Source of the DNA: Chloroflexota bacterium
Lineage (GTDB): Bacteria > Chloroflexota > Anaerolineae > Anaerolineales > Villigracilaceae
Length of the DNA stretch: 64,000 bases
NCBI GenBank assembly: GCA_016234495.1
Contig: JACRBI010000004.1
Coordinates: forward strand, 124,001-188,000
Direction: 5' to 3'
How positions within the stretch are numbered: position 1 is the stretch's first letter; every line of letters begins with the position of its first letter. The notes beneath the pieces are model-generated. The model saw only the letters and a list, made by a program, of their open reading frames with translations, was not told the origin of the DNA and searched no databases. The translations under genes and the position numbers were made by a program. Positions 66 through 19,925 of the stretch are shown here, piece by piece.

Positions 66-1814
66 ATGTCCACGCCACTTTTGCCCGCCGAAAATCAAAA
101 CCGATCCATGCTGGGACGCCTCAGAGGATTCGGTCGAAGCGTGACCGCCGCGCACGGCAGCCTGCAAGATTTGGGACTTGCCCGCCGCGCCCAATTACTT
201 AATGTCATTACTTTGCTTTTGACCCTCGCCTTTGCATTCGGTCTGGCATCCCAGCCCCGATCTGTCGTCCTCGTTTATTCCCTGTTGAGCGTATCGATCG
301 TTTCATTTTTATTTGGAAAATCCAAATACCCCCGCGTTGGAATATTGCTTTTCTCGCTTGGCTTCATCTCTATTACATATCTTTCATTATTCCTCGGTCT
401 CGCATCCGGGTTTCTGACATCTGTGCTGGCGGTTGTTCCGATCTCGTTGATCGTTGCCAGCGCTATCACGGGACCGCGCACCTTTGCCGTGCTTGCAATC
501 TACGCCACCGCACTGACGGCGCTGGCTTCCTATTATTCAAAGGTTCCGATCCTTGAAAATAACATTGCCGAAGCAAGCGGCATTATCTTTTCAACTGGCG
601 CGGTTCTTTTCGGTGTGATTGTTTTCCGTGCAAGGCTCGAAAAATCACGCCTGGAAGAGACCCGCGCAATCAATCAGGAATTGCAGGAAATAAAAACGAA
701 TCTCGAAAAGCATGTGGATGATCGCACCCGCGAACTCGGCACAGCCAATCAACAGATTCAAGAACGCGCCATGCGGCTTCAAATCATCTCGGACATATCG
801 CAGGAAATATCAACCAACATCGAACAGCAGCCCGCCGAATTGCTGGCGCGCATTGTCCGCTCCATCAGTGAAAAACTCGGCTTTTACCATGTGGGTATCT
901 TTTTGCTGGACGAAAACCGTGAGTACGCAGTCTTGCGCGCCGCCAACAGTGAAGGCGGTCAGCGAATGCTTGAACGCCACCATCAATTAAAAGTTGGCGG
1001 TACAGGCATTGTGGGTTACGTCTCTCAGGCTGCCCACCCGCGTATCGCGCTCGACACCGGGTCAGATGCGGTGTTCTTTAATAATCCCAACCTGCCGAAG
1101 ACGCGTTCTGAAATCGCAATTCCCATTAAATACGGCAGCGCTGTCATCGGTGTATTGGACGCCCAAAGCACCCTGCCCTCAGCCTTCAAAGATGAAGATG
1201 TCAACATTCTTGAAACGCTTGCGAACCAGATCGCCATCGTTGTCAACATCGGAAATGCCGGCAACAATGCAAAAAATGCGAGCCTGAAAGCCGGCAGATT
1301 TACCCACAGCAAAGCCAAGCAGGATGGATTTCACTACCTGCCGGATGGAACGATCTCGACCAATCTCCCTTCAAACAGTCCGCTGCTGGAAAAAGCCCTC
1401 GCATCAGGCGAGACCGAGGTGACTGCCCAGCCTTCGACGGGCAATCCTGCCACTTTGGCAGTGCCGGTCAAATTCCGAGGTCAGGTGATCGGCGTTATCC
1501 ACATTCAGGCCGCGGAAGAAAAAAGGAAGTGGACGGAAGACGAAATCATCATGGTGCAGTCCATCTCTGACCGCGCGGCATTCGCCCTTGAGAATGCCCG
1601 CCTCTTTGAGGAAACCACCCGCCGCGCAGAACAGGAAGAAACCATTGCGCGGGTCACGACTCAAATTGGCGCTTCGACCAATTTCGACCACATCCTGCAG
1701 ACGACCATTCACGAACTTGGGCTGGCGCTTGGCGTTTCCCGCTCATTCATCCAGTTGGGCACCACGCCTGATGAAGAACCGTCCACGCAGACCAACCCTA
1801 ATGGACACAAGTAG
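66..1814 (+). CDS. six-TM membrane GAF/half-GAF sensor, no output domain
   Basis: Predicted membrane sensor of 582 aa. About six hydrophobic segments lie at residues 43-190. A charged coiled coil follows (about 190-235) and contains the signal-helix motif DDRTREL. A full GAF domain spans about 240-400 (YHVGIFLLD, then TGIVGYV, then a TRSEIAIPI-type strand). A shortened second GAF at about 455-530 has only the C-terminal half (VIGVIHIQA, WTEDEI, ALENARLFEE). The C-terminus ends shortly after a segment that looks like the first helix and strand of another GAF. There is no HisKA, HATPase, GGDEF or methyl-accepting region. It is the first of six related proteins in this cluster, and its input is probably sensed in or near the membrane. 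The ligand is unknown, and I see no conserved Cys that would suggest a bilin. Confidence 0.85.
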   Translation: MSTPLLPAENQNRSMLGRLRGFGRSVTAAHGSLQDLGLARRAQLLNVITLLLTLAFAFGLASQPRSVVLVYSLLSVSIVSFLFGKSKYPRVGILLFSLGFISITYLSLFLGLASGFLTSVLAVVPISLIVASAITGPRTFAVLAIYATALTALASYYSKVPILENNIAEASGIIFSTGAVLFGVIVFRARLEKSRLEETRAINQELQEIKTNLEKHVDDRTRELGTANQQIQERAMRLQIISDISQEISTNIEQQPAELLARIVRSISEKLGFYHVGIFLLDENREYAVLRAANSEGGQRMLERHHQLKVGGTGIVGYVSQAAHPRIALDTGSDAVFFNNPNLPKTRSEIAIPIKYGSAVIGVLDAQSTLPSAFKDEDVNILETLANQIAIVVNIGNAGNNAKNASLKAGRFTHSKAKQDGFHYLPDGTISTNLPSNSPLLEKALASGETEVTAQPSTGNPATLAVPVKFRGQVIGVIHIQAAEEKRKWTEDEIIMVQSISDRAAFALENARLFEETTRRAEQEETIARVTTQIGASTNFDHILQTTIHELGLALGVSRSFIQLGTTPDEEPSTQTNPNGHK

Positions 1815-1819
1815 ACGTT

Positions 1820-4138: not shown

Positions 4139-4176
4139 TCATCTCCGAGTCAAGTCAATTTTCAGAGGCATTCATT

Positions 4177-5535
4177 TTGGATAAGAAACCAACTCACACA
4201 CGCGTCAGCGAAACACAACGCTACACCCTGATAGGTGCGGTTTTTGGATTCTTGTTTCCGCTGGTCGGAACCAGCTTGAGGATTTTGGTTTCAGGGCTGC
4301 CGCTGGATTTACCGACCATGCTCAACACACAATTAACAGATCCCATTTTATGGGTGGTGGATACTGCGCCATTGGTTCTCGCTTTGTTTGCAGGCTATGC
4401 CGGCAGAAAACAGGACATGCTCTCAAAAGCCAACGAGGAACTCAGCGACCGCGAACATGAATTAAAAATAAATCAATTAACCCTCGAGCAGCGCGTGACT
4501 GAACGCACCGCAGAATTGGAGAATGCCAATCAGCGCAATATGCGCCGCTCGGCACAGTTCGAATCAATCGCCCGCGTCGCCCGCACCATCCGCTCCTCGC
4601 AAACGCTCGAGACATTACTGCCCAGCATCGCAGATTCCATTTCAGAGCAATTCGGTTTTTATCACGTCGGCATTTTCCTGCTCGACAACAGCAAAGAATA
4701 CGCGATCCTGGTAGCCGCAAACAGCGAAGGCGGAAAAAGGATGCTTCTTCGGAATCACCGCCTGCTCGTCGGCGGGACTGGGATCGTGGGCTATGTGACG
4801 AAAAGCGGGCAGCCGCGCGTCGCTCTAGACGTTGGGCAGGATTCTGCCTACTTCAACAATCCCGACCTCCCAGACACGCACTCCGAGATCGCCCTGCCTC
4901 TGCGCGTCAGCACGGATGTGTTCGGCGCATTGGATGTTCAAAGCCTGGAAATCAACGCGTTTTCACAGGAAGACGTCAGCATCCTCTCCGCGCTGGCCGA
5001 TCAGGTCAGCATCGCCATTCAAAATGCGCGTTCCCTGCAGCAAGCCCGTGAGGCGCTGGCACAGGTCGAGTCATCTTCTGCTCAAACTGGCAAACAACAA
5101 TGGTATGAATTCATCGAACAGCAACCCGAGGGAAGTTACATCTTCGACGGGATTGACGCCAAAAAGATTTCACAAACCAAAAACGAATCGCCTGCTGGCG
5201 GGCTAGCGATCCCGCTCACGTTGCGCGGAGTACGCATCGGCACCCTGAAACTCAGCGCCGCGACAGACATCAACCGCGAGTGGACCAGCGATGAAATTGC
5301 CATCGCGCGCGCCACAGCCGAACGCACAGCGCTGGCGCTTGAAAACGCGCGCCTGCTGCAAGAAGCGCAAAAACGCGCAGCCAAAGAACGAGCCGTCGGG
5401 CAGATCTCCGCCAGGATCGGCAATCTGGTGAATTTGGAAAACCTGCTCAAAACCACGATCCAGGAATTGGGCAGTCAACTCCCGGATACCGAGATCGCCA
5501 TTCAACTCACATCAGAAAAATTGCAAGGGAAATAA
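4177..5535 (+). CDS. short two-TM GAF sensor, TTG start
   Basis: This is the smallest array member at 452 aa. Translation probably begins at TTG 4177: an AGAGG-like site lies about ten bases upstream, and no ATG precedes the first TM in this frame. Two hydrophobic segments (about 17-40 and 52-75) are followed by a coiled coil with the ERTAELENAN signature, a GAF at about 120-285 and a half-GAF near 325-395. It has no extracellular domain of useful size, so it may sense membrane state or a cytoplasmic ligand, or act only as a partner for the larger paralogues. Its GAF core is close to that of its neighbours (EGGKRMLLRNHRL, FNNPDLPDTHSEIALPL). Confidence 0.84.
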   Translation: MDKKPTHTRVSETQRYTLIGAVFGFLFPLVGTSLRILVSGLPLDLPTMLNTQLTDPILWVVDTAPLVLALFAGYAGRKQDMLSKANEELSDREHELKINQLTLEQRVTERTAELENANQRNMRRSAQFESIARVARTIRSSQTLETLLPSIADSISEQFGFYHVGIFLLDNSKEYAILVAANSEGGKRMLLRNHRLLVGGTGIVGYVTKSGQPRVALDVGQDSAYFNNPDLPDTHSEIALPLRVSTDVFGALDVQSLEINAFSQEDVSILSALADQVSIAIQNARSLQQAREALAQVESSSAQTGKQQWYEFIEQQPEGSYIFDGIDAKKISQTKNESPAGGLAIPLTLRGVRIGTLKLSAATDINREWTSDEIAIARATAERTALALENARLLQEAQKRAAKERAVGQISARIGNLVNLENLLKTTIQELGSQLPDTEIAIQLTSEKLQGK

Positions 5536-5540
5536 TCGCC

Positions 5541-7271
5541 ATGATTTCCAGGCTCTTTAATTATTTTAGAGATGATGAAGACAGCAACCCGTCATTCATA
5601 AAAATGACGAGGAATATTCTGATCTTTGTGGTGGCGATAAACATTTCCCTGCTGCCATTGGTGATCGGGCTATTTGGCGAAGAATCACGCAACATTCCAG
5701 CGTTGATCGCCCTCAGCATCACGCTCGCCTTGGAAATCATTTCTCTTTATTATGCCCTGCGTGCCAAAGTCGGCATGGCGAAATTGGTCGTGCCGCTGGC
5801 GCTCATCTCAGCCGTCGCAGTCATCGCCATCAACACCAACGGTCTGCGGGATATTTCCATCGTCGGGCTTCCGCTTGTGCTGGTGATCGCAGCGCTGCTG
5901 CTCGGCAAACGCGCAATATGGACCGTTACGCCGATCGCGGTCGCGACAGCCCTCTTCATCGCGCTGACAGATCTCAGATCGGACAGAACCATCACACAGG
6001 TCGGTATCGACGACGCGATCATTATCGTCGTCCTGCTGCTTGGATTCTCGGCTATCGTCCAGGCATTGATCAACCGCCTGACAGAAACCATCAACAAATT
6101 AAAGCAGAACGAAAAAATTCAAGCCGAGGAAAATCGTGAATTAAACGAACTGCGCCAGTCGCTTGAAGAGCGCGTGAACCTGCGCACAGCCGAGCTCGAA
6201 ACCGCCAACCGTTTCAGCCAGCAGCGCGCGCGTCAATTTGAAGCCATTTCGCAGGTGGTGAAAGCCATCTCGTCGGTGCAGGAACTGGACATCCTTCTCC
6301 CGCGCATCACACAAGTGATCAGCGAACAATTTAACACCTATCATGCTGGAATTTTTCTGCTCGACGATGAACGCGAATTCGCAGTGCTCCGCGCTTCAAA
6401 CAGTGAAGGCGGAAGAAAAATGCTGGAGCGCGGACACAAATTGCAGGTCGGTCAGACCGGGATCGTGGGATTCGTAACCGCCACCGGCCGCGCGCGCATC
6501 GCCCTGGACGTTGGGGCTGATGCGGCTTTCTTTGACAATCCCGACCTTCCAGATACCCGCTCCGAAATCGCTCTGCCATTAACTCAGGCAGGTCAGGTGA
6601 TCGGCGCGCTCGACGTGCAAAGCACAGAACCAAACGCTTTTGGGCTGGACGATGTCGATGTGCTGACCACTCTGGCTGACCAGGTGGCGGTGACCATCAA
6701 CAATACGCGTTCGTTTGAAGAAGCGCGCAAGTCGCTTGCCGAGTCGCAAAGCACGTTTAATGAACTGACACGCGAATCATGGAAAGTGATGCGCCCGAAA
6801 TCAGTGGGGCTGGGATTTCAGGCAACAGGTTCAAAAGTCCTCCCGCTCGAACAACCTTTGAAGGATGAGAACATTCAGGAAGTTGTTTCCAAAAACAGCC
6901 CTGTCATGTCGAGCGGCGATAAAGGTTCATCCAATCTCACGATTCCCATTCGCTTGCGCGATCAGGTCATCGGCGTGATGAACCTCCGCACGCGCAAAAA
7001 CAGAAAAATTTCAAGCGATGAATTTGACATCGCAGAAGCTGTGGCAGAGCGTCTTTCGCTCGCCATCGAAACAGCAGTGCTGCTCCAATCAACGCAGCAT
7101 CGCGCTGACATTGAACGCGTCACGACCGACATATCATCCAAGATCGGAGCTTCCACCCGCTTTGAAACGATCCTGCAGACAGCGGCTCAGGAACTCAGCC
7201 GCGCCCTCGGCGGTTCGGATGTGATCGTGCAGATCGAACCTGTGTCAATTGATCTGGGCACGACAGGATAG
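5541..7271 (+). CDS. six-TM membrane GAF/half-GAF sensor, no output domain
   Basis: This 576-aa protein has the same architecture as the first array gene: about six TM segments between residues 25 and 178, a coiled coil at 180-225 (RTAELETANRF), a GAF at about 230-395 and a half-GAF at about 460-525. The linker between the two GAF units includes the element ESWKVM, seen in related form (ESWSRL) in the 824-aa paralogue. The tail ISSKIGASTRFETILQTA again resembles the start of a further GAF. It begins five bases after the previous stop. A duplicate of the 582-aa gene that diverged in its membrane part is the simplest explanation. Confidence 0.85.
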   Translation: MISRLFNYFRDDEDSNPSFIKMTRNILIFVVAINISLLPLVIGLFGEESRNIPALIALSITLALEIISLYYALRAKVGMAKLVVPLALISAVAVIAINTNGLRDISIVGLPLVLVIAALLLGKRAIWTVTPIAVATALFIALTDLRSDRTITQVGIDDAIIIVVLLLGFSAIVQALINRLTETINKLKQNEKIQAEENRELNELRQSLEERVNLRTAELETANRFSQQRARQFEAISQVVKAISSVQELDILLPRITQVISEQFNTYHAGIFLLDDEREFAVLRASNSEGGRKMLERGHKLQVGQTGIVGFVTATGRARIALDVGADAAFFDNPDLPDTRSEIALPLTQAGQVIGALDVQSTEPNAFGLDDVDVLTTLADQVAVTINNTRSFEEARKSLAESQSTFNELTRESWKVMRPKSVGLGFQATGSKVLPLEQPLKDENIQEVVSKNSPVMSSGDKGSSNLTIPIRLRDQVIGVMNLRTRKNRKISSDEFDIAEAVAERLSLAIETAVLLQSTQHRADIERVTTDISSKIGASTRFETILQTAAQELSRALGGSDVIVQIEPVSIDLGTTG

Positions 7272-7273
7272 TA

Positions 7274-8248
7274 ATGGGATCCATGATATTTATGCGCCGC
7301 TATGCGAATCTTTTCCTGCTGATGGTCTTTTCTCTCTCTGCCTGTTCAACCCAGCAAGCAGAAGAACCTGCAAACCCGCCGCTGCGGATCGAGTTCGCAC
7401 AGTGGTGGGGCGACTATACGCTGCTCGTCGCAGAAGAAAAAGGCATGTTTGAAAAATATGACGTGGAAGTGGAGCCCGTCTATTACGAAATATTTTCGAA
7501 AACCTATCCAGACCTGGCGTCGGGTCAGTTGGACGGCGCGCTGATCGCGGTTGGCGACACGATCAACATCAACCGCACATCCCCCATGAAGGTCGTCGCT
7601 GTCTATGATAACGGTGGTAACGATGCTGTCATCGTTGGCCCGGAAATAAATTCCGTTCAAGACTTGAAAGGTAAAACCATCGGCTTGCAGATCGGTTCGC
7701 AATATGAATTGACTGTTGTCAAAATGTTGCAAAGTGCAGGCATGAGCCTTGGCGATGTTACCATTGTCGGCATCAATCCTGAAAACGCGCTGTCAGCCTT
7801 GAAAAGCGGTCAGGTGCAGGCGGCTTCCACATGGGAACCATACTCATCTGAAGCGCTTTCAAGCGGCTACAAGATCATTTATCCGCAGGAGCAATTTTAC
7901 CTGTTCCCAGACCTGATCGTCTTTGACGCTTCGGTCGTGGAAGAAAGACCCGCTGACGTGCGGGCATTCCTGCAAGCATGGTTTGAAGCAGTGGATTACC
8001 GTTTGAAAAATGAGGATGAAACACGGGCAATTGCAGCCAAATACCTGCACCTTGACATCGAAGATGTGCTGGCAGATGACACGCTAAAAATCCTGACACT
8101 TGGCGACAACAGGAGATTATTCGACTTGCAGGAAGCAAATTCCATTTATTCGATCACAAAGATCACGACTGATTATTTGATCTCAATTGGAGTGCTGGCA
8201 CAACTAACCGACCCACTGGTATTGCTCGACCCGTCCTATCTGCCGTAG
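7274..8248 (+). CDS. NMT1/SsuA-type substrate-binding lipoprotein
   Basis: This 324-aa predicted lipoprotein has a short signal peptide ending in the lipobox LSAC, with the acylated Cys at residue 24. The mature part resembles periplasmic binding proteins of the NMT1/THI5/TauA/SsuA group: an early QWWGDYTLLVAEEKGMFEKY segment, then VQDLKGKTIGL, then a C-terminal lobe with QAASTWEPY. Such proteins normally deliver sulfonates, nitrate, bicarbonate or pyrimidine precursors to an ABC permease. No permease or ATPase gene is next to it; it sits two bases after one GAF sensor and 24 before the next. It may therefore act as a ligand-presenting protein for the adjacent Cache sensors, which is inference. 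ATG 7274 is assumed; ATG 7283 or 7292 would also leave a signal peptide. Confidence 0.82.
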   Translation: MGSMIFMRRYANLFLLMVFSLSACSTQQAEEPANPPLRIEFAQWWGDYTLLVAEEKGMFEKYDVEVEPVYYEIFSKTYPDLASGQLDGALIAVGDTININRTSPMKVVAVYDNGGNDAVIVGPEINSVQDLKGKTIGLQIGSQYELTVVKMLQSAGMSLGDVTIVGINPENALSALKSGQVQAASTWEPYSSEALSSGYKIIYPQEQFYLFPDLIVFDASVVEERPADVRAFLQAWFEAVDYRLKNEDETRAIAAKYLHLDIEDVLADDTLKILTLGDNRRLFDLQEANSIYSITKITTDYLISIGVLAQLTDPLVLLDPSYLP

Positions 8249-8272
8249 GTTCGCAATTCCGATAAGATAACC

Positions 8273-11101
8273 ATGATGATGAATCCAACTGATCAACCCA
8301 CACAAGCGGAAGAACGCCGTCGCAAAAACGTTCTGACGATCAGCCTGACCACGGGAATTTTATTTGTTTTCGTGGCGGCGGTCTCTGGCTATGTCGGCTA
8401 CACCGACAACGGCGTCAGAGGTCTGGTCGGACTGGGAATCACCGGCGCGGTTGCTATCATGGCATTCATCAGCGCCTACCTCAGCCGCAGCGGCCGCCCC
8501 AACCTCGGAATTTCGATCTTGATCGGGATGATCTTTGCCATCTCATTCACCATCCCGTTCGTAGTGCATGGACAGGCGCTTGCCCTCGGGATCATGATCG
8601 CCATTGTTGTGGCTGGAATTTCATCCGCAACACTGCCGCCCGTCTGGGCTACCCGCGTAATCATCAGCGCCTTTACCGCTGCCGTCATCATTACGGTGAT
8701 GGATCTTTTCCTGCCGGACTTTGGGCTGCCCACGAACCCTGCCGCAACAAACCTGATTGCGGCAGTTACATCAACCATCTATGTCATCTTTATTTTACGG
8801 CGTTTTAACTCATACGCATTTCGGACCAAGATCATTATTGCTTTTACCCTTGTGACGATTATTCCACTCGTCGCGCTCGGCATTTTCAATTCCAGGTCCT
8901 CGTCGCAATCCCTGCAGAATCAAAATAAGACCCAATTGACAACGCTTGCGAAAGTTGTCGCTGACAACGTGGATGGTTTTATGACCACCCAACTGGACGC
9001 CATCCGCGCCGACTCGAAACAACTGCCATTATCCTCATTTTTAGACCTGCCACCACAATCCCGCGCCGGCAGCATCGAAGAAAATAACGCACAACTCGTT
9101 CTATTGTCCCTTTTGCGCAAAGACCCGATTTTCATTCATTCGATCGCCGTGCTAAATGAACACGGAATCAACATGCTTGACACGTTCGAAGAATATAACG
9201 GGCAGGACGAAAGCGCGCAGGCTTACTTCAAGCGCCCAACGCAGACCGGACTGCCGTATGCCTCAAATGTCGTTTTCCGTGATGCTGACGGGTTCATTTA
9301 TTTCAGTTCTCCCATTACAGGAAAAAACGGCGAAGTTGTTGGTGTCCTGCGGATCGAGTATTACGCCACCGTCATCCAATCCATTGTCCGCTCGATTGAG
9401 ACTGAAAGTTCAGGAACAATTATTTTGCTGGCAGACTCAAGGACATATTTGCGGGTCGGCTATACCGGTGACCGTGACGAATTGCTAAAGTCTTTCAACA
9501 ACTTCAACAACCTTGAATTCAGCGTTATGCAGTTGGAAGGTCGACTGCTATCCGGTCCAAGAGAAAGCGCCCTGCAAGGAATAAATGACGTGATCGTGGC
9601 GGGTATGGATAACCTCCAGCGCGAGCCATTTTTTGAAGCCTATTCAGACTCGCTTGGCTCGAACACCATCAACACCGGCGTGTTCCTTAATACACAGCCC
9701 TGGATCGCCATTATCCGCCAATCTACGAACGTCTACTTAAAACCTGTTTCGGAACAAAACAGAACCAACATTTTGATCTCAATGGGGCTGATCATTCTAA
9801 GTATCGGAGCAGGCTTCCTGGCCTCGCAGATCCTCACTTCGCCGATCATTTCACTGGCCAAAGTAGCTGAGCAAATCACCGCCGGAGACCTCACCGCCCG
9901 CGCAGGAACGACGACCGAAGACGAGATCGGCGCGCTCGCTGATTCCTTCAACCGCATGACGGAAGAATTAAATCAAACTGTGAACAGCCTGGAACTCCGC
10001 GTTTCGGAACGCACCACAGACCTCGAAATTTCCCGCGAGCAAAGCGAAGACCGCGCCAACAAACTTCAAGCCATCGGCGAAATTTCGCGCATCATCGCCA
10101 GCGAACAAAAGCTCGAAATCCTTTTTCCGCTGATCACCCGCCTCGTCAGTGAACGCTTCGGCTACTATCACTCAGGCATCTTTCTGATCAACGAAACAAA
10201 ACAATTCGCAGTGCTGCAAGCCGCAAACAGCAAGGGCGGAAAAAATATGCTCGCGCGCGGACACAGGCTTGAGGTCGGAGCGAGCGGAATCGTCGGCTTC
10301 GTCGCCCAACACGGCACTCCGCGCATCGCTCTGGACGTGGGGCTGGATGCTGTTTACTTCAACAATCCCGACCTCCCGACCACCCGCTCCGAAATGGCGC
10401 TGCCGCTTAAATTCCGCGACGAGGTTGTAGGCGTCCTCGACGTGCAAAGCGAACAGTCCGGCGCCTTCACCGAAAATGACGCGGACACGCTCAGCATTTT
10501 GGCTGACCAAATTGCAATTGCGCTTGAGAACGCGCGTCTGTTCGCTCAAACACAACAGGCGCTCGACGAAGCGCAGGCTCTTTATCAACAAAATGTCCAG
10601 GAAGGCTGGCTCACATTCAGCCGCGAAGAAGACACGATCGGATACCATCAAGGCATGGGCAGCGGAAGAAAATTGAAAGCGCCGATTGAAACGGAAGCGA
10701 TCAGGCAGGTAATGAATCGCGGGACAATGCTCGTCACAAACGCAGACGGCGAATCCGGCGAGCCGTCCATGATCGTCCCGATAAAATTACGTGGAAGAGT
10801 CATCGGAGCGATGAACATCAAAGCCCCGGCCAGCGACCGCCAATGGTCGGGCGATGAGATCAATCTCGTCGAGGCGATCTCGGCCCGCCTTTCGCTGGCG
10901 CTTGAAAATGCGCGCCTGATTCAAGAATCTCAGCGGCAGGCGATCAAGGAACAGACGATCGGTGAAGTCACTGGCAAGATCGGCGCTTCGATCAATATGA
11001 AGAATGTGCTGCAAACCGCGGTCGAAGAATTGGGCAAAGCCATGCCCGGGTCAGAAATTGTGATCAAGTTCCAGAACGGAAACTCACAAAGTGAAAAGTA
11101 A
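8273..11101 (+). CDS. multi-TM plus Cache-HAMP-GAF sensor, no output domain
   Basis: At 942 aa this is the largest array member. It looks like a composite of the two other architectures: a block of about six TM segments (residues 20-170), a further TM at about 178-200, a Cache-like extracytoplasmic region (about 205-485), a TM near 495-517 and a HAMP domain ending in DEIGALADSFNRMTEEL. It then has a signal helix (SERTTDLEISREQ), a GAF at about 595-760 and a half-GAF near 830-895. The tail IGASINMKNVLQTAVEEL ends the protein. It follows the binding lipoprotein by 24 bases and may be its partner. It has no kinase, cyclase or methylation domain. Confidence 0.86.
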   Translation: MMMNPTDQPTQAEERRRKNVLTISLTTGILFVFVAAVSGYVGYTDNGVRGLVGLGITGAVAIMAFISAYLSRSGRPNLGISILIGMIFAISFTIPFVVHGQALALGIMIAIVVAGISSATLPPVWATRVIISAFTAAVIITVMDLFLPDFGLPTNPAATNLIAAVTSTIYVIFILRRFNSYAFRTKIIIAFTLVTIIPLVALGIFNSRSSSQSLQNQNKTQLTTLAKVVADNVDGFMTTQLDAIRADSKQLPLSSFLDLPPQSRAGSIEENNAQLVLLSLLRKDPIFIHSIAVLNEHGINMLDTFEEYNGQDESAQAYFKRPTQTGLPYASNVVFRDADGFIYFSSPITGKNGEVVGVLRIEYYATVIQSIVRSIETESSGTIILLADSRTYLRVGYTGDRDELLKSFNNFNNLEFSVMQLEGRLLSGPRESALQGINDVIVAGMDNLQREPFFEAYSDSLGSNTINTGVFLNTQPWIAIIRQSTNVYLKPVSEQNRTNILISMGLIILSIGAGFLASQILTSPIISLAKVAEQITAGDLTARAGTTTEDEIGALADSFNRMTEELNQTVNSLELRVSERTTDLEISREQSEDRANKLQAIGEISRIIASEQKLEILFPLITRLVSERFGYYHSGIFLINETKQFAVLQAANSKGGKNMLARGHRLEVGASGIVGFVAQHGTPRIALDVGLDAVYFNNPDLPTTRSEMALPLKFRDEVVGVLDVQSEQSGAFTENDADTLSILADQIAIALENARLFAQTQQALDEAQALYQQNVQEGWLTFSREEDTIGYHQGMGSGRKLKAPIETEAIRQVMNRGTMLVTNADGESGEPSMIVPIKLRGRVIGAMNIKAPASDRQWSGDEINLVEAISARLSLALENARLIQESQRQAIKEQTIGEVTGKIGASINMKNVLQTAVEELGKAMPGSEIVIKFQNGNSQSEK

Positions 11102-11118
11102 AGGAAGCAATTAAATTA

Positions 11119-13593
11119 ATGAAAAAGTCCCGCTCTTCACTGTTGAACTTATTGAATAAAACGCCGTTCGGCAGGTTTAATCTTCGCACGAAAATCACGC
11201 TTGGAAATTTGTTAATCACCTTTGCGGCCATCATCGCCATGGGATATTATGTGTATTATCGCAACCAGGAATCAAATCTTTTCCTTTCGACTCAGCTGGC
11301 ATTAAGCATTCGCAGCAATGCGGAGAATAATCTCTCGACAACCAGCGAAGAGCAATCTGCGCTGCTCGATGCGTTTTTCACATCCATGCGCGACAATGTT
11401 TCAGCGCTCGGCTCGATTGAAAGCAAAATGCTGTCGAAAGAATCGCTCCTGAACAGCGGGGAGTATTGGGATGCGTCTTCGTCGCTCTTCCGTCTGGCGT
11501 CAGGCAGCTGGGATAATTCAAATTTAGAAACTTCCTCAATATTTATCCCTGCCAGTGTCGAACTGACTGAAGACCTTACGTCCAAGCTAAACGTGCTTAA
11601 ACAAACCGAATTGATCGCCCCGTCCACCCTTGAAAATAACCCGGACATCATCGCCATTTATTTTGGCGGCATTTCAGGCGAGACCGTTTACTTCCCAAAT
11701 ATTGACCTCGCGAATATTGTCCCGCCCGATTTTGATGTAACCGGACGGCCATGGTTTGTGGATGCTGCGCCGGAGCAGAACCCGCTCGGGAAAGTGGTTT
11801 GGTCCGCGCCTTATCAGGATGCCGCTTTGAACGGTTTGGTCATCACCACCAGCGTGCCGGTGTTCGACTCGAAAAAGGATTTTCAAGGCGTATCCGCCAT
11901 GGACATCCAGTTGAATCGAATCACAAACCTGGTATCCAGCATCCATGTTGGGAAGACCGGTTATGCTTTTCTCATCGACAGAGACAACCGCCTGATCGCA
12001 CTGCCCGAGGCAGGCTATTCAGATTTTGGCGTCACATCAGAAACTGTTCCGCTTGGCGAGGTGCTGGATCAAACAAAGTTAGGCGGCATGTCACCTGAAC
12101 TCTTTGGGATAATGAAGGAAATATCCCTCGGTAAAAATATAAAATCCGTAACCATTGGCGGAGTTGAAAGATATGTCGCTTATCAACAAATACCGGAAGT
12201 CAGGTACAGCCTCGCCATCATCGTGCCTTCGAGCGAACTGCTTGTCCAAGCCGCTTCTGTGAACGAACAGGTGGCGCAGGAATCAAGAAATACGATCAGG
12301 ATAAGCATCATATTAATTTCGATTGTTTTGGCGCTTGCGGCACTTGCCACACTTGCCATTGCCACCAGATTAACCACTCCGCTCAAAGACTTGACCGGCG
12401 TAGCCAATGAGATCATCACAGGAAATTTCGAAGCCAAGGCGGAAATCAAGGAACAGGATGAGATCGGGACGCTCGCATCAACCTTGAACGTAATGACTTC
12501 AACCATCCGTGACATGGTCCACACACTGGAAAACCGGGTCGACGAACGCACCGCAGAACTCAAGAACGAGTTGAAAAAAGGCGAATACCGTGCGCGGCAG
12601 TTCGAAGCCATTGCCAAAGTATCTCACGCCATCAATGCCGCACAAAATTTACAGGAGCTTCTGCCTCACATTTCCAACGTGGTCAGCGAGCAATTCGGGT
12701 TCTACCATGTGGGCATCTTCCTGAACGACGCCAGCAATCAATACGCCTCCCTAAGCGCGGCAAACAGCCCGGGCGGAAAGATAATGCTAAACCGCAGGCA
12801 TCAACTTAAGATCGGCGAACAGGGCATCGTCGGCTATGTGACAGGCACCGGCAAACCGCGCATCGCCCTCGATGTAGGCGAAGACCCCGTCTTCTTCAAC
12901 AATCCCGACCTCCCCGAGACGCATTCTGAAATGGCGCTGCCCTTGAAGATCGCAGACCAGATCATCGGTGCGCTTGATGTGCAAAGCACTGATCCAAACG
13001 CATTTTCAGATGAGGATGTGGAAGTGTTGTCCACACTGGCAGATCAGGTCAGCCTCGCGATTCACAACGCCCGTCTATTTGACCAGACCCAAAAATCATT
13101 GACCGAGGCTGAAGAAATTTACCGCCAGCAGTCGCGTGAATCATGGAGCCGTCTGCCGCGGGAAATTAAACTGACAGGCTACCGTTATACTGCCAGCGGC
13201 GCAGTGCCTTTGATCGACAGCGATTCGACAGAACAGGCAGATCAAAGCCGGCAGGAAATATCCGTCCCTGTCATTTTGCGCGGAGAAACAATCGGCAGCT
13301 TATCGGTACAGGTTCCAAAGACCGAGCGCGTCAGCAGGGATCAGATCGACCTGATAAAGGCTGTCGCTGAGCGTGTCGCGCTCTCTGCGGAAAATGCGCG
13401 CCTGTTTGAAGAAACGACCACGCGCGCCACACGCGAACGCATTGTTTCTGATATAACCAACAAAATTCGCAGCACGAACGATCCGCAGGAAATGATGCAG
13501 ACCGCAATGGCTGAGCTGCAACGCGTGCTCGGCGCCACGCGGATCGAAGTCATACCGCAAAAATATGAATCGCGGCAGGATCAAACAGGATAA
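11119..13593 (+). CDS. dCache-HAMP-GAF sensor, no output domain
   Basis: This 824-aa protein has a first TM at about 26-47. A dCache_1-like region follows (about 50-390) with typical pieces such as GRPWFVDAA and GKTGYAFLIDRDNRLIA. A second TM lies near 393-415, followed by HAMP (DEIGTLASTLNVM), a coiled coil, a GAF (about 490-650) and a half-GAF (about 715-775). Its Cache region resembles those of amino-acid or carboxylate chemoreceptors more than the 772-aa paralogue does. An AAGGAAG site about ten bases upstream supports ATG 11119. It is the last sensor before the ParA-like gene, whose ATG follows its stop by two bases, so the two are probably co-translated. Confidence 0.87.
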   Translation: MKKSRSSLLNLLNKTPFGRFNLRTKITLGNLLITFAAIIAMGYYVYYRNQESNLFLSTQLALSIRSNAENNLSTTSEEQSALLDAFFTSMRDNVSALGSIESKMLSKESLLNSGEYWDASSSLFRLASGSWDNSNLETSSIFIPASVELTEDLTSKLNVLKQTELIAPSTLENNPDIIAIYFGGISGETVYFPNIDLANIVPPDFDVTGRPWFVDAAPEQNPLGKVVWSAPYQDAALNGLVITTSVPVFDSKKDFQGVSAMDIQLNRITNLVSSIHVGKTGYAFLIDRDNRLIALPEAGYSDFGVTSETVPLGEVLDQTKLGGMSPELFGIMKEISLGKNIKSVTIGGVERYVAYQQIPEVRYSLAIIVPSSELLVQAASVNEQVAQESRNTIRISIILISIVLALAALATLAIATRLTTPLKDLTGVANEIITGNFEAKAEIKEQDEIGTLASTLNVMTSTIRDMVHTLENRVDERTAELKNELKKGEYRARQFEAIAKVSHAINAAQNLQELLPHISNVVSEQFGFYHVGIFLNDASNQYASLSAANSPGGKIMLNRRHQLKIGEQGIVGYVTGTGKPRIALDVGEDPVFFNNPDLPETHSEMALPLKIADQIIGALDVQSTDPNAFSDEDVEVLSTLADQVSLAIHNARLFDQTQKSLTEAEEIYRQQSRESWSRLPREIKLTGYRYTASGAVPLIDSDSTEQADQSRQEISVPVILRGETIGSLSVQVPKTERVSRDQIDLIKAVAERVALSAENARLFEETTTRATRERIVSDITNKIRSTNDPQEMMQTAMAELQRVLGATRIEVIPQKYESRQDQTG

Positions 13594-13595: not shown

Positions 13596-14381
13596 ATGCC
13601 ATCAATTATTGCAGTATCAAACGAAAAAGGCGGCGTGGCAAAAACCACCACCACCTTATCCCTTGGCGCAGCCCTGGTAGATTTGGGAATGAAAGTTTTG
13701 CTGGTCGATCTGGACGCGCAAGCCAACCTGACTTTGTCGCTTGGCTTCGAACCCGGCGAAGCAAGACATACCTCCAGCGACATCCTGCTCGACAACGCAT
13801 CGATGCAGAGCATCTGCCGAAAAACCGATGTCGAAAATCTTGATTTGATTCCCTCGAGTTCGCGCATCGAAACCTCGGAGCAATTCCTGCCGATGCGCAC
13901 CAATCACACCATTATTTTGCGGCAGGCAATTGCCAGCTCAAACCTTTCCTACGATTACATAATTCTGGATTGTCCGCCTGTGCTCGGCGCAATTACAAAG
14001 AACGCGCTTGCCGCGTCAGACCTGCTGCTCATCCCCACTCAGGCGGAATACTTCTCCGCCTATGCTCTGCGCAACATGATGACACTCATCCGCAGAATTC
14101 GCGAGGAAGACAACCCCAACCTCGCCTACCGCATCCTCGTCACAATGCTGGATAAAAGAAATCGCACACACCGAAACATCAGCGAGCAGCTCCGCGCCAC
14201 TTTCGGTCAGGGAGTGTTCAACACGATCATTGAAGTAGATACAAAGCTGCGCGAAAGCCCCATTGCTGGAATGCCAATTACACGCTACAAACCAGGCGCG
14301 CGCAGTTCCACTCAATACCGCGTCCTCGCCCAGGAGTTAATGGAATATGCCAAAGAAACCAAAAATAGACAAGCGGCTTGA
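13596..14381 (+). CDS. ParA/Soj-family ATPase
   Basis: This 261-aa protein starts with the deviant Walker A motif KGGVAKTTTTLSLG, continues with LLVDLDAQANLT, and has a Walker B-like segment YIILDCPPVLG. That is the signature of ParA/Soj/MinD-type ATPases that dimerise on ATP and position cargo such as chromosomes, plasmids, chemoreceptor clusters or carboxysomes. No ParB or parS-like repeat is visible nearby. It lies between membrane sensors and a histidine kinase, and its last 35 bases overlap the kinase gene. A role in positioning or partitioning the sensor array, analogous to ParC/PpfA of chemotaxis clusters, is a reasonable inference. A role in chromosome segregation is less likely in this context. 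Confidence 0.9.
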   Translation: MPSIIAVSNEKGGVAKTTTTLSLGAALVDLGMKVLLVDLDAQANLTLSLGFEPGEARHTSSDILLDNASMQSICRKTDVENLDLIPSSSRIETSEQFLPMRTNHTIILRQAIASSNLSYDYIILDCPPVLGAITKNALAASDLLLIPTQAEYFSAYALRNMMTLIRRIREEDNPNLAYRILVTMLDKRNRTHRNISEQLRATFGQGVFNTIIEVDTKLRESPIAGMPITRYKPGARSSTQYRVLAQELMEYAKETKNRQAA

Positions 14382-17259
14382 CAAGCTCTTCAGGGATATC
14401 CATCCCGAGGAGAATGTCTCCAAGTCAAAGCGCATTCCAAAGGTCGACAAGACCGCGCCGCTTCCTATCAAGCTGGAGCCTGTTCGGCAAATCCCCGAGC
14501 AGATTCCCACCCCTGAGCCAGCTCGCCCGGCGCCCATCGCCCCGAAGAAGCCTGAGCCGAGGATCGGTTCATCGTCTATCTCTGTCAATATTCAAACCGG
14601 GCAAGACGATTGGGCAACCTTGCGCGTCATGGATGAAACAAATAACCGCGAGTGGACTTCTGACGAAGAATTACTAATCAAACAAGTTTCCGATCAGCTT
14701 TCACTCGCGCTTGAAAATGCGAGGCTGTTCCAGGAATCGAAAGAACGCGCCACTGAGCTGGCGTTGATCAATCGCGTTGTCAATACGCTGACCGTCTCCA
14801 CCAACATGGAGGACGCGCTGCGCGTTGTCATCAATGAAATCGTGGAAGGCTTCCCTGTTGCGCGCGGCGCGATCGCATTACTTGATGATGACAAACAAAG
14901 CTTTACCGTGGTTGCCGACCATTCCAAGATGTCGAATACATCAAGCGCAATCGGGTTAAAGATTCCGCTGAAAGATAATCTCGCTACGCAGACCCTGGTG
15001 GCTACTCGCAAGCCTTTTATTTTGGAAGATTCGCCCAACAACCCCGCCAACCCGCCGGTGGTGCAGGAGGAATTCCGCCGCCTGGGAATTAATTACACTG
15101 CCCTTTTTCCCATCATCAATAACGAAGAAGTGATCGGGACTCTCGGCGTGGATATTGCGGAAAAGAACGCAAGCCTGGACCAGAACCAGATCGCCTTGCT
15201 GGAGGCGGCTCTCGCGCCGATCTCCACTGCCATCGGACGGCTTCGCGCGGAAGAATCTCTGACAAGGTTTAAACTTGGCATCGAAACATCCGGCGACGCG
15301 GTTTTTATGACGGACACGAGCGGCAATATTATTTTTGCCAACTCGGCCTTCGAAGCAGTTTACGGCTACAAACCGGACGAGGCTATCGGGCAAACTCCGC
15401 GCATTATCAAATCCGGGTTGATCCCAAAGGATCAGTATGAATATTTTTGGAACACACTCCTCTCTAAGCAGACGATCACCGGTGAGTTGATCAATAAAAC
15501 CAAGGATGGCAGGCTGATTCACATCGCCGGTACCAACAGCCCGATCCTTGATAACAACGGCAATATTCTGGGTTTCCTCGCGGTTCATCATGACATTACC
15601 GACCGAAAAAACGTGGAGGACGAACTGCAGAGGCGCAATACCTATCTATCCGCCTCTGCCGAGATCGGCCGCCTCGTCACTTCTACACTTGACTTGAACA
15701 CGATCTTCACGCGGACGGTGAATCTGGTCAACGAGAAATTTGGGTTTTATCATGCCGCCATTTTTATCGTCGAAGAGACAGGTTTCAATGCCGTCCTTCG
15801 GGAAGCAACCGGCGCTGCCGGTACAGAAATGAAGGAAAACAACCACACATTACAGGTCAATCAAAAATCAGTTGTGGGCAAGGTGGCGCTTGATGGGCAG
15901 GCTGTGGTTGTAAACGATGTCTCGCTTGCTTCATTGCACAAACACAACCCCCTGTTGCCGGAAACACGGGCTGAAGCGGCCATCCCATTGAGGATCGGCA
16001 GCAGGATCATCGGTGTGCTGGATGTGCAAGCCAAGACAGTAGACGCATTTACCGAGGACGAGATCGCGGTGCTTCAAATTCTTGCCGATCAGGTTGCGGT
16101 TGCCATTGACAATGCCCGTTCATTCGAACTCTCGCAGCAGGCGGTGATGGAAATGCGCGAGATCGACCGCTTGAAGAATCAATTCCTCGCAAACATGAGT
16201 CACGAATTGCGCACGCCGCTCAACTCGATCATCGGTTTCTCGCGCGTCATCATCAAGGGCATCGACGGTCCCGTCACCGAGTTACAGCAGCAAGACCTGA
16301 CAGCCATCTACAATTCCGGTCAACATCTGCTTGGCTTGATCAATGACATCCTCGACAGCGCAAAGATTGACGCAGGCAAGATGGAACTGGCATTCGACGA
16401 GGTGAATATTACGGACGTCGTCAACAGTGTGCTGTCCACCATGAGCGGTTTGGTGAAGGGCAGACCGATAGAATTGAAACGAATGATTCAGCCGAACCTG
16501 CCAACTGTCCGCGCCGATGCGATTCGAATCCGCCAGGTAATGATCAACCTGCTGTCCAACGCGTCCAAATTCACAGAGGAAGGCGATATCATCGTCGAAG
16601 TTGCATTGAAACCAGCGCCGACCGGCCGAAACGAAGTCAGAGTGAGCGTAACCGATACAGGGCCGGGCATCTCCAAGCAGGATCAGGAAAAGCTGTTCCA
16701 GGCATTCTCGCAAGTTGACGATTCTCCCACTCGAAAAACCGGTGGAACGGGACTTGGGCTTTCCATCTGCCGCCAATTGATCAATATGCATGGCGGAAGG
16801 ATCTGGGTTGACAGCGAAATTGGCAAGGGAAGCACGTTCTCGTTTACATTGCCGCTCTTCCGAAATGAAAGCGACGGCAGCCAAAGGCCGAACAGCAGCA
16901 AGGTCATCCTCGCGATAGATGACGACTCGCATGTGATCGAACTGTACGAGCGCTATTTGCAGCCGCGCGGCTTCAAGGTGATTCCGTTAACCGATCCGTC
17001 TCAAGCGCTTGAACGCGCCAGGCAGTTAAAGCCTTTTGCCGTCACATTGGACATCATGATGCCCGGCGTTGACGGCTGGAAGGTGTTGAGTATTTTAAAA
17101 GGCGATCAGACCACGCGCGATATTCCCGTGATTATTTGCAGTATCATCGAAGATCTTGAAAAAGGACAAAGCCTCGGCGCGAACGACTATCTTGTAAAAC
17201 CGATCCTCGAAGACGACCTTGTCAACGCGCTCGAGCGGATTGATGTGAAAATTCAATAG
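14347..17259 (+). CDS. hybrid sensor histidine kinase (half-GAF, GAF, PAS, GAF, HisKA, HATPase, REC)
   Basis: This 970-aa soluble protein has a basic, Pro-rich N-terminus, then only the C-terminal half of a GAF (about 80-130: DDWATLRVMD, REWTSDEELL, ALENARLFQE). A full GAF follows (about 135-290), a PAS (about 305-420), and a GAF of the array type (about 430-595). HisKA has FLANMSHELRTPLN with His619, HATPase has NLLSNASKF, DTGPGI and GTGLGLSI, and a C-terminal REC has Asp902 in LDIMMPGVDG and a late KP. It has no TM, so it probably receives input from the upstream membrane proteins, which carry related GAF modules but no kinase. The start at 14347 lies inside parA; AGGAG ten bases upstream supports it. 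The usual fate of the phosphoryl group is the C-terminal REC or the downstream enzyme-fused REC. Confidence 0.93.
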   Translation: MPKKPKIDKRLDKLFRDIHPEENVSKSKRIPKVDKTAPLPIKLEPVRQIPEQIPTPEPARPAPIAPKKPEPRIGSSSISVNIQTGQDDWATLRVMDETNNREWTSDEELLIKQVSDQLSLALENARLFQESKERATELALINRVVNTLTVSTNMEDALRVVINEIVEGFPVARGAIALLDDDKQSFTVVADHSKMSNTSSAIGLKIPLKDNLATQTLVATRKPFILEDSPNNPANPPVVQEEFRRLGINYTALFPIINNEEVIGTLGVDIAEKNASLDQNQIALLEAALAPISTAIGRLRAEESLTRFKLGIETSGDAVFMTDTSGNIIFANSAFEAVYGYKPDEAIGQTPRIIKSGLIPKDQYEYFWNTLLSKQTITGELINKTKDGRLIHIAGTNSPILDNNGNILGFLAVHHDITDRKNVEDELQRRNTYLSASAEIGRLVTSTLDLNTIFTRTVNLVNEKFGFYHAAIFIVEETGFNAVLREATGAAGTEMKENNHTLQVNQKSVVGKVALDGQAVVVNDVSLASLHKHNPLLPETRAEAAIPLRIGSRIIGVLDVQAKTVDAFTEDEIAVLQILADQVAVAIDNARSFELSQQAVMEMREIDRLKNQFLANMSHELRTPLNSIIGFSRVIIKGIDGPVTELQQQDLTAIYNSGQHLLGLINDILDSAKIDAGKMELAFDEVNITDVVNSVLSTMSGLVKGRPIELKRMIQPNLPTVRADAIRIRQVMINLLSNASKFTEEGDIIVEVALKPAPTGRNEVRVSVTDTGPGISKQDQEKLFQAFSQVDDSPTRKTGGTGLGLSICRQLINMHGGRIWVDSEIGKGSTFSFTLPLFRNESDGSQRPNSSKVILAIDDDSHVIELYERYLQPRGFKVIPLTDPSQALERARQLKPFAVTLDIMMPGVDGWKVLSILKGDQTTRDIPVIICSIIEDLEKGQSLGANDYLVKPILEDDLVNALERIDVKIQ

Positions 17260-17271
17260 GAGCTTGTTATC

Positions 17272-18927
17272 GTGTCATTTATCATCAAATGCCTGGATTG
17301 CGGGCATTACGCGCCATATCATCCTACATCCACAACATGCCCGAAGTGTCAAAGTCAATGGCGTGAAGCGGAATATGATTATGAATTGATCGGCAAAACA
17401 TTGCCGTCTAAACTGGCAAAGCGGTCTTCCGGTTTGTGGCGATATCGGGAATTACTTCCGGTGCGGGAGCCCAACACAAGCCTGTCGCTTGGCGAAGGCG
17501 GGACTCCCCTTATCCGAGCAGTAAATTTAGGCATGATGCTGGGCTGTCCCAACATTTACATCAAGGATGAACGTCAGGGACCGACCTCCTCCTTTAAGGA
17601 CCGGCAGGCTGCGGTCACGATCGCGGCGCTGAAAGAAGCGGGCATTACCGAAATGGTGGCGGCCTCCACGGGAAACGTGGCAATTTCATATTCTGCGTAT
17701 GCATCCCGCGCCGGCATGAAGTTGTGGGCCTTTGTCACCAGCCTGGTGCCGGCAGTAAAAATGCGCGAGATCGCCCTGTATGGGAGTCAGGTGATTAAGA
17801 TCACCGGCTCATATGACCAGTGCAAGCAGGTCGCGTCTGAATTTGCCCGCCAGCGGCGGCTATATCAGGATATGGGCGCGCGCACCATCACTTCCATCGA
17901 AGCGATGAAGACCATCGCGTTCGAAATCGCAGAACAACTTACATCCATCCAAGGCTCGCCAGCCGATCACACCCACTGGAAAACACCCGATTGGTATGTT
18001 CAGGCAATCAGCGGTGGGATGGGGCCGCTCGGCGTTTATAAGGGCTTCCGCGAGATGAAGCAGATGGGATGGACAAACCGCATCCCGGCATTTGCCCCCA
18101 TTCAAGCGGAGGGTTGCGCACCCATGGTGAATAGCTGGAAAAAAGGGTTGGAAAAGGCAGAGCCGGTCACTTCGCCAAAGACTCGCATCGAAACACTCGC
18201 AACGGGCGACCCTGGCCGAACCTATGAATTTCTGCGAGAGTACGTGAACAGCACGAACGGCGCTTTCGAGAGCGTGACCGATGAAGAAGCGTTCCGCGCC
18301 ATGCATGTTCTGGCAAAAATGGAAGGCATTTCAGCAGAACCCGCCGCCGGCGTAGCCTTTGCCGGTTTATTCAAACTGATCCGCGCGGGCATCATCAAAC
18401 CCAACGAAACCGTCGTTGTCAATTGCACCGGTCACACCATGTCGGCTGACCCGAGCATTCTGGGCGAGAACTGGTCGCGCGATGTCAAATTCCCCTCGGC
18501 TGACGAGACACCGCAGGAGGGTCTGCTTTCGGCGCTGACGCAGGTTGCGCCCGAGCGCTTCCCGAAGATCGTCATCGTGGAAGATACCGACGAAGCCCGC
18601 CGACTCATCCGCCGCATCCTGCAATCGCAGGGAAACTTCACCATCCTTGAAGCAACCAACGGCAGGGAAGGTCTCGAATTAATCCAACGCGAAAGACCGG
18701 ACCTGGTTGTGCTTGATCTGATGATGCCTGAAATGGACGGCTTTACGGTCATTGAATTGCTGCGCGCCAAACAGGAAACAGCGACCATACCCGTCATCGT
18801 GGCAACAGCAAAAGAACTCACAGCCGATGAAAAGAACAGGCTTGGCGGGCAGATACAATCCCTCATGCAAAAAGGCGACTTTCTAAATGATGAATTCCTT
18901 GAAGAGGTAAAAGCTTTAATAAAGTGA
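17272..18927 (+). CDS. threonine synthase-like PLP enzyme fused to a receiver domain
   Basis: This 551-aa protein begins at GTG 17272 after an AGGAG site. An N-terminal zinc-ribbon-like segment has four Cys (CLDCG, CPKC). A fold-type II PLP domain of about 360 residues follows; its Schiff-base Lys109 lies in SSFKDRQ, with the STGN phosphate-binding loop and a C-terminal VNCTGH motif. This matches threonine synthase, which converts O-phosphohomoserine to threonine. Residues about 432-551 then form a complete receiver domain with acidic VEDTDE, Asp482 in LDLMMPEMDG and a T/K-type end (ATAKELT). The two parts are in one frame without a stop. The gene begins 12 bases after the hybrid kinase, so phospho-control of the enzyme is a plausible inference. 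A purely metabolic enzyme with a degenerate REC is the alternative. Confidence 0.9.
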   Translation: MSFIIKCLDCGHYAPYHPTSTTCPKCQSQWREAEYDYELIGKTLPSKLAKRSSGLWRYRELLPVREPNTSLSLGEGGTPLIRAVNLGMMLGCPNIYIKDERQGPTSSFKDRQAAVTIAALKEAGITEMVAASTGNVAISYSAYASRAGMKLWAFVTSLVPAVKMREIALYGSQVIKITGSYDQCKQVASEFARQRRLYQDMGARTITSIEAMKTIAFEIAEQLTSIQGSPADHTHWKTPDWYVQAISGGMGPLGVYKGFREMKQMGWTNRIPAFAPIQAEGCAPMVNSWKKGLEKAEPVTSPKTRIETLATGDPGRTYEFLREYVNSTNGAFESVTDEEAFRAMHVLAKMEGISAEPAAGVAFAGLFKLIRAGIIKPNETVVVNCTGHTMSADPSILGENWSRDVKFPSADETPQEGLLSALTQVAPERFPKIVIVEDTDEARRLIRRILQSQGNFTILEATNGREGLELIQRERPDLVVLDLMMPEMDGFTVIELLRAKQETATIPVIVATAKELTADEKNRLGGQIQSLMQKGDFLNDEFLEEVKALIK

Positions 18928-18964: not shown

Positions 18965-19912
18965 TTGCAAAGTAAACAAGCTGCTGGAATTACAGCTGCG
19001 TTCAGCGCAGCATTATTTCTTGGGTTCGCACCCGTCTTCGGAAAACTCGCAATCACGCAGGGTTTTTCTCCGTTTGCGGTCGTGGCACTGCGCACCAGTT
19101 TTGCAGCTTTCATTTTGTTTTTGGTCATCGCCGTCTTCTATCGCCAGTATCTGTACATCTTCCCCGTTGGACTGATCGGCTGCATTCTGGCCGGCGCGAT
19201 CAACGGATTCGGCTCGCTGCTTTACTACCTCGCCCTTGCCAGACTCCATGCCAGCGTTGGGCAATTACTCTATTCGCTCTATCCGTTTTTTGTAGCGCTC
19301 TGGCTGATCCTCGATCACCAACCCCCCACCCGCCTGACATTCTTCCGAATTTTTCTCGCCACGATCGCCGTGCTGCTGCTCACCAGCATCCCCGATGATT
19401 CAACCGACCCAACCGGCGTGCTTCTGATGATTGGCGCGGCTCTTTTATACGCCCTGCACCTGCCGATCAATCAGCGCGTGCTTTATGAAGTCCCTGCGCC
19501 AACAGTCGCGCTCTACACTTTACTGGCTATGAGCGCCGTGGTCGTGCCAGCCTATTTGACGTTCGACCGCGCCTGGCCTGTCGACAACACACCCTGGATG
19601 CCGGTCTTAGGCTTGACCTTTGTAACCGTCTTCTCGCGGATCGCATTATTCTTGGGGATTAAGAAGATCGGCGGGATGCAGACTGCAATTTTGGGACTCG
19701 CCGAGCTTTTGATTGCGATCGTCTTTAGCCACATTTGGCTTGGCGAGGACCTGTCCCTGCTTCAATGGCTGGGCGCAGTCGGACTCAGCCTCAGCCTGCT
19801 CCTCGTCATGTTTGAAAATTCTCCGCCGCCGACACATAGCGGAACCACCGGCTGGCTTTCATGGATCCGCGCGCCTGACCTGCCCAAAGATATTTTCGGA
19901 CCCTACGAATAA
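18965..19912 (+). CDS. EamA/DMT-family transporter
   Basis: This 315-aa hydrophobic protein has about ten TM segments in two repeated halves, as in the EamA (DMT, RhaT-like) exporters of amino acids and metabolites. An early FSAALFLGFAPVFGKLAI and a second-half KKIGGMQTAILGLAELLIAIVFS fit the family. The likely start is TTG 18965, since no ATG precedes TM1 in frame. It starts 37 bases after the threonine synthase-REC gene and could be co-transcribed, so a role in exporting threonine or a related amino acid is possible but unproven. A terminator lies just after its stop. Confidence 0.85.
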   Translation: MQSKQAAGITAAFSAALFLGFAPVFGKLAITQGFSPFAVVALRTSFAAFILFLVIAVFYRQYLYIFPVGLIGCILAGAINGFGSLLYYLALARLHASVGQLLYSLYPFFVALWLILDHQPPTRLTFFRIFLATIAVLLLTSIPDDSTDPTGVLLMIGAALLYALHLPINQRVLYEVPAPTVALYTLLAMSAVVVPAYLTFDRAWPVDNTPWMPVLGLTFVTVFSRIALFLGIKKIGGMQTAILGLAELLIAIVFSHIWLGEDLSLLQWLGAVGLSLSLLLVMFENSPPPTHSGTTGWLSWIRAPDLPKDIFGPYE

Positions 19913-19925
19913 CTTCACTGCAAAG

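Follow-up and report, generated by a model that had tools for sequence, protein, structure and literature searches.

A gene that joins an enzyme resembling threonine synthase (TS) to the receiver (REC) domain of a response regulator raises two questions: whether a sensor kinase could act directly on such an enzyme, and which reaction the enzyme would carry out. The gene lies in a 64,000-nucleotide stretch of a Chloroflexota genome (the window, by which we mean the whole stretch analyzed), where positions 17272-18927 of the forward strand form a single uninterrupted frame with a GTG start that encodes 551 amino acids. An earlier note on this DNA had read the product as a TS-like enzyme fused to a receiver, and the frame and its two motifs, SSFKDRQ with Lys109 and LDLMMPEMDG with Asp482, were found as it had described them. 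From the N terminus, the protein consists of a zinc ribbon (Cys 7/10/23/26), a fold-type II PLP enzyme of the TS type, a linker, and REC (Table 1). Pfam assigned residues 72-387 to PALP (220 bits, E 4e-65) and residues 433-524 to Response_reg (74.5 bits, E 9e-21), and detected no DNA-binding domain in the protein. The neighbors named in the note were also confirmed, with a hybrid kinase gene stopping 12 b before the fusion start, where GGAG precedes the GTG, and an EamA open reading frame (ORF) starting 37 b after the fusion stop. A scan of positions 13500-20800 for promoters and terminators gave no excess over shuffled sequences.

Table 1. Coordinates of the fusion domains and neighboring genes in the window
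Feature	Position	Strand	Basis
Six GAF-containing sensor genes without a kinase domain (starts 66, 1820, 4177, 5541, 8273, 11119)	66..13593	+	Pfam
NMT1-type binding protein, within the sensor row	7274-8248	+	Pfam
ParA/MinD-like ATPase, between sensors and kinase; the called ORF shares 35 b with that of the kinase	13596..14381	+	Pfam AAA_31/CbiA
Hybrid histidine kinase (PAS, GAFs, HisKA, HATPase, C-terminal REC), probable phosphodonor	14347..17259	+	Pfam, hydropathy, synteny
Fusion: zinc ribbon and TS-like fold-type II PLP enzyme domain, residues 1-389; Lys109 PLP lysine	17272..18438	+	Pfam PALP; AlphaFold2 model; Cys4/Lys109 in 135/135
Fusion: linker, residues 390-429, conserved GLLxAL (417-422) just before the receiver	18439..18558	+	pLDDT <50 for most of 389-426; conservation
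Fusion: receiver (REC); acidic E437/D438, phospho-acceptor D482, T512, K534	18559..18924	+	Pfam Response_reg; conservation in 135
EamA-family transporter, probable exporter of a small metabolite	18965..19912	+	Pfam EamA; TIGR00950 56.7 bits, below the cut-off of 230

Conservation was assessed on 135 distinct fusion proteins, defined as BLAST matches running from query residue 10 or earlier to residue 535 or later, scoring more than 400 bits, and drawn from the loci collected. This set leaves out truncated or broken copies, such as the one in G016 (L143, G016:C2:1255776-1257427), which is spread over two frames by either a sequencing error or gene decay. The four cysteines, K109, the S132-T133-G134-N135 loop, D438, D482, and K534 are present in all 135 proteins; position 437 is D or E throughout, and position 512 is T in 99 and S in 36. 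The linker motif is nearly as constant (G417 in 131, L418 in 127, and L422 in 130 of the 135). An earlier count over 80 sequences, comprising 59 of the window type and 21 of a second paralogue, agrees with these figures. Over a sample of fusion pairs, identity averaged 0.62 in the enzyme, 0.55 in REC, and 0.45 in the linker. Because 135 distinct proteins share this architecture, which recurs in the relatives of the window's genome, the fusion is neither a chance event nor a mis-assembly, and a degenerate receiver is ruled out by the Asp and Lys kept in every case. Absence from relatives and systematic loss of those two residues were the findings that the earlier note had said would speak against its reading; what we found was a fusion carried by relatives with both residues in place.

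An AlphaFold2 model built on 87 aligned sequences (mean pLDDT 84.7, pTM 0.71) gave a TS-like enzyme part, a poorly determined linker, and a REC whose last 16 residues fall below pLDDT 50. The GLLxAL motif forms a short, low-confidence helix. No contact between enzyme and REC is visible in this model, in which the linker is of low confidence and the domain arrangement is not readable. In Foldseek and VIA-align comparisons, the enzyme part matched TSs with VIA-align Z scores of 39-47, the plant TS 2c2b being best (Z 46.6); CapA2 (9k3c) reached Z 43.5, and tryptophan synthase and the serine/threonine dehydratases scored lower, at about 34-35. The fold match, together with the PALP score and the invariant Lys109 and S132-N135, identifies a fold-type II PLP enzyme.

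The fusion is widespread within its class. Among 61 genomes searched (the window's own and 60 relatives), a full-length fusion at 84-100% identity was found in 34 of the 37 of the same genus; an intact copy is missing from the other three, two of which (G001 and G019) have neither the fusion gene nor its paralogue. The second paralogue, 47-50% identical and spanning both domains, occurs in 28 of these 37 genomes and is absent from that of the window. One of its loci (L130:8930-12190) is a row of fusion, stand-alone REC, and a TS resembling the PRK08197-type synthase of the window's genome (L004). Among 199 genomes sampled from the class, 60 gave a match across both domains, and a phylum sample of 301 placed the fusion in two families outside the class, with one genome and six genomes, respectively. 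A scan of GTDB contigs yielded at least 13 loci matching over both domains among the 80 loci listed, and among these listed matches the titles were Anaerolineales, Anaerolineae, Anaerolineaceae, Anaerolinea, Thermoflexales, or Chloroflexi. Of 24 genomes reached through other loci, three had fusions, each with Chloroflexi or Chloroflexota in its title. Samples from four other phyla (194 genomes from the phylum of a Stenomitos locus, 349 from that of a Bradyrhizobium locus, 299 from that of a Cohnella locus, and 199 from that of an Acidobacteria MAG) showed no fusion among the top few candidates scored per genome, an empty answer that shows little; the same query at 1e-75 on the phylum sample of 301 served as positive control. 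Plasmid records gave 22 matches, none with a coverage of 80%.

Free-standing relatives of the enzyme part that lack a REC were found in 4 of the 194 genomes sampled from the cyanobacterial phylum of the Stenomitos locus. Their identity is 44-49% by two measures. Their neighborhoods gave no lead to a function, as ten neighboring proteins from four loci have nothing obvious in common. Longer variants also occur: in several families of the class, proteins of about 700 residues or more (L196-L201, L203, and L204) have the look of an enzyme-REC-REC arrangement. Long open frames in G154 and G096 were considered as kinase-enzyme gene fusions and rejected, as the extra N-terminal part reads as a spurious frame; by eye, these two and six other long proteins resemble enzyme-REC-REC.

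A kinase gene accompanies the fusion at most loci. Kinase neighbors were counted as BLAST matches (E <= 1e-8) to the window's kinase core at the 132 loci with at least 700 b of upstream sequence, and at 115 of these a kinase gene on the same strand ends 0-237 b before the fusion. At 6 of the other 17 it directly follows the fusion (-4 to 57 b), and 11 of the 132 have a kinase in neither place, three of them having only 1.2-1.5 kb of upstream sequence. The pairing extends to distant relatives, with an upstream kinase at 65 of the 81 loci that share less than 70% identity with the window protein. Since the window's own genome of 4.1 Mb has only 41 HisKA matches, a kinase gene should seldom come to lie beside the fusion by chance. 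An H-box of the form SHE[LI]R[TN]P was present in 105 of the 115 upstream kinases. Distances between kinase cores correlated with those between receivers (rho 0.80, 114 loci), and the nearest kinase core came from the same module type in 94 of 97 cases; both patterns could stem from shared ancestry alone and are no proof of interaction. The upstream kinases at L109-L148 differ widely in length, the shortest having about 600 aa and the longest 2738 (contig ends truncate some of them), beside an enzyme of near-constant length, so that the sensor part seems to change quickly and the output to be kept. Hydropathy revealed no transmembrane stretch in the window's kinase.

How phosphate would reach the fusion is complicated by further receivers. 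At least 110 residues follow the kinase core in 65 of 69 kinases that precede EamA-followed loci and in none of 29 that precede loci followed by a REC or synthase gene. From these C-terminal extensions and from the separate REC genes, most modules seem to carry a second receiver, either on the kinase or as a gene of its own. In EamA-type modules, the phosphate of a kinase with such an extension may reach the kinase's own REC instead. The genome yielded only four HPt matches, all of them on contigs other than the window's; since the kinase also has a REC of its own, phosphate may go straight from kinase to fusion, with that REC as a second acceptor.

The surrounding genes differ between closer and more distant relatives. 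With five reference proteins used for labeling, the first labeled same-strand gene within 3 kb downstream was determined at 123 fusion loci: EamA at 67, a match to the fused REC at 28, a kinase at 18, another REC match at 2, an L004-like TS at 1, and none at 7. EamA came first at all 50 loci at least 70% identical to the window protein, at 16 of 38 with 50-70% identity, and at 1 of 35 below 50%; at 29 of the last 35 a REC gene came first, and at 27 a small separate receiver gene follows the fusion. An L004-like synthase was among the labeled genes behind nine loci; in one case it is a fragment of 150 aa with 27% identity. Behind EamA, on the opposite strand (19963-24877, -), lie an OmpR-type regulator, a REC-GAF-kinase, and a GAF-kinase that recur in many closer relatives.

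Upstream, the sensor genes and the binding-protein gene are separated by 2-38 b and lie in line with the kinase gene; from this spacing, we infer that row and kinase form one transcript. Three of the six GAF sensors have HAMP and a dCache match, the latter above the Pfam cut-off only in the gene starting at 11119. All six resemble one another, and toward the C terminus they match segments of the hybrid kinase's N-terminal part, between residues 40 and 185; the row gives the impression of a single long sensor broken up into modules. The ParA/MinD-like ATPase is upstream at 22 of 28 EamA-type loci versus 3 of 19 loci followed by a REC or synthase gene, among loci with at least 5.5 kb of upstream sequence.

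Is the enzyme a TS? The window's genome has ten PALP matches, and three of these pass the thrC model (TIGR00260): L001 (294 versus 167 bits), L002 (184.5 versus 167.1 bits), and L004, which also passes PRK08197 (575 versus 303 bits). The gene thrB adjoins L001 on contig C38. The idea that the fusion is the sole TS of its genome, a point that the earlier note had left to be checked, is therefore rejected. Its own scores lie below the cut-offs for PRK08197 (260.1 versus 303 bits), for cysteate synthase (TIGR03844, 122.6 versus 324.9 bits), and for thrC (164.9 versus 167.1 bits), the last a near miss by 2.2 bits that decides little alone. The Arg of the RxEGQKT motif is present in five aligned solved TSs (R160 in Thermus thermophilus, chain numbering) and in none of the 135 fusions, which have S (63), A (52), or other residues (20) at the aligned position 208. 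We take R160 of the T. thermophilus enzyme to contact the substrate phosphate together with T88, S155, and N188; the fusions have V/A/K at the position of T88, G at those of S155 and N188, and S/A/G/T/C/P/V at that of R160. The Arg loss is weak evidence on the substrate, because L002 likewise lacks it (Thr instead) and yet passes thrC; L004, over the PRK08197 cut-off, differs at T88, S155, and N188. Positively charged residues occur near the lost Arg, at position 204 in 114 and at position 209 in 60 of the 135 fusions. In a quick tree of 110 sequences, for which the tool warned of long branches, a long branch (SH-aLRT 100) separated the fusions, together with the four free-standing cyanobacterial relatives, from the 14 plain synthases included. 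Judged on these comparisons, the fusion is doubtful as a TS and may well not be an ordinary one.

Since one protein holds both a phosphorylation site and a PLP site, each intact, and most loci have a kinase gene next to them, an enzyme output of a two-component system is the best reading of this gene. That a PLP enzyme would serve as the output of such a system is well supported, and an amino-acid-type enzyme is probably switched directly by the sensor. More specifically, we think it fairly likely that the fusion is a response regulator with a PLP-enzyme output derived from the TS family, phosphorylated directly or indirectly by the adjacent kinase, with EamA moving its product or substrate. 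This builds on observed features: the domain make-up, both active sites kept in 135 proteins, kinase adjacency, and a clade apart from the plain synthases compared. Sensors of the same gene row would feed the hybrid kinase just upstream of the fusion, and this kinase, directly or through a further receiver, would phosphorylate Asp482. The change in the receiver would then be passed on through the linker and make the enzyme more or less active, the conserved motif G417-L418-x3-L422 before REC being the candidate coupling element in a region where the model is unsure. The substrate of the enzyme would be of the amino-acid type and is probably something other than O-phosphohomoserine held in the usual manner; the transporter would carry that substrate or the product. 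The earlier note had proposed direct phospho-control of an amino-acid biosynthetic enzyme; the intact REC and the kinase gene beside most relatives uphold an enzyme output of a two-component system, and the identity as TS is put in doubt by the missed cut-offs, the lost Arg, and the thrB/thrC pair elsewhere.

One alternative is that the fusion is a true TS after all, a second isoenzyme switched by the environment that converts O-phosphohomoserine to threonine and holds the phosphate with other residues, for example K/R at 204 or 209. TSs are its closest solved relatives, positive residues are available at one or the other position, and a gene most similar to the PRK08197-type synthase of the same genome stands behind nine loci, counting the fragment. 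The narrow miss of the thrC cut-off and the passing of L002 without the Arg count for this alternative and against the preferred reading. We still consider it unlikely, given an Arg absent from all 135 proteins, changes at the presumed phosphate-contact Thr, Ser, and Asn positions, the long separate branch, and the thrB/thrC pair elsewhere in the genome.

The wiring could also run in reverse, with the PLP domain sensing a metabolite and altering how REC gains or loses phosphate, so that the protein adjusts the kinase or serves as a sink for phosphate and turnover is not its output. A further receiver in many modules (on the window's kinase, by length at most EamA-type loci, and as a small separate gene at 27 of the 35 most distant loci) would suit this arrangement, as would the missing DNA-binding domain, but the examined catalytic residues are all kept in the 135 fusions and the REC-free cyanobacterial relatives speak for an enzyme, which makes it improbable. 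An accidental tether, in which REC merely brings the enzyme to a signaling complex or is an evolutionary leftover, would agree with a linker that makes no confident contacts in the model; with the phosphorylation site kept in every fusion and a kinase beside most of them, we give it hardly any credence. Extending the preferred reading, in which the kinase switches the enzyme, one can picture a closed circuit: the PLP enzyme produces a signal derived from an amino acid, this is exported by EamA, and the upstream dCache/GAF sensors and binding protein detect it and feed the same kinase, which would thus directly set the output of the signal-making enzyme. We regard this circuit as a long shot.

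The targets of most known response regulators are DNA, cyclic-di-GMP, or proteins. The conserved, kinase-adjacent module described here points at an amino-acid-type PLP enzyme instead, through which a sensor kinase would control small-molecule metabolism quickly and directly. The general concept of a receiver on a metabolic enzyme is known; what appears new here is a PLP-enzyme output with unusual breadth and kinase pairing. The fusions mark a separate clade of TS-like enzymes, for which the REC-free cyanobacterial relatives offer simple test objects, and they caution against annotating such genes as thrC.

Compared with TSs (thrC TIGR00260 and PRK08197; structures 2d1f, 1uim/1v7c, 6nmx, and 2c2b), the fusion shares the fold, the PLP lysine, and the STGN loop, and it has the zinc-ribbon cysteines in common with L004. 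It differs in carrying a REC, in having the RxEGQKT Arg and the GNAGN loop replaced, and in scoring under both cut-offs (thrC narrowly). Cysteate synthase/CapA2 is derived from threonine synthase. It has the same PLP fold as the fusion, as the Z score of 9k3c reflects, and the fusion lies far below the cut-off of its model. Plant TS is switched allosterically by S-adenosylmethionine; as the best structural match, it suggests that this fold can be switched, although there the switch is a small molecule and in the fusion it would be a receiver domain. Microcystis ThrC (PMC12172450), like the fusion a TS relative of a separate lineage, has a second activity, a threonine deaminase side activity; the passages on it mention no receiver.

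The earlier note had called this type of output rare and had not known it as described. In a literature search on such fusions and on enzyme-output regulators, no title or abstract opening among the papers listed named a TS-receiver or PLP-enzyme-receiver fusion, and a text search of PMC4558063 found no occurrence of "pyridoxal"; to that extent the PLP output appears new. The general idea is already published: passages of an archaeal two-component census (PMC5847659) report that REC on standard metabolic enzymes has repeatedly been observed in bacteria and describe archaeal fusions of REC with metabolic enzymes as narrowly distributed. With the enzymatic-output response regulators in those passages the present fusion shares a REC joined to an enzyme; it differs from them in that its output is a PLP enzyme of the amino-acid type, and in that many families of one class have kept it next to a kinase gene.
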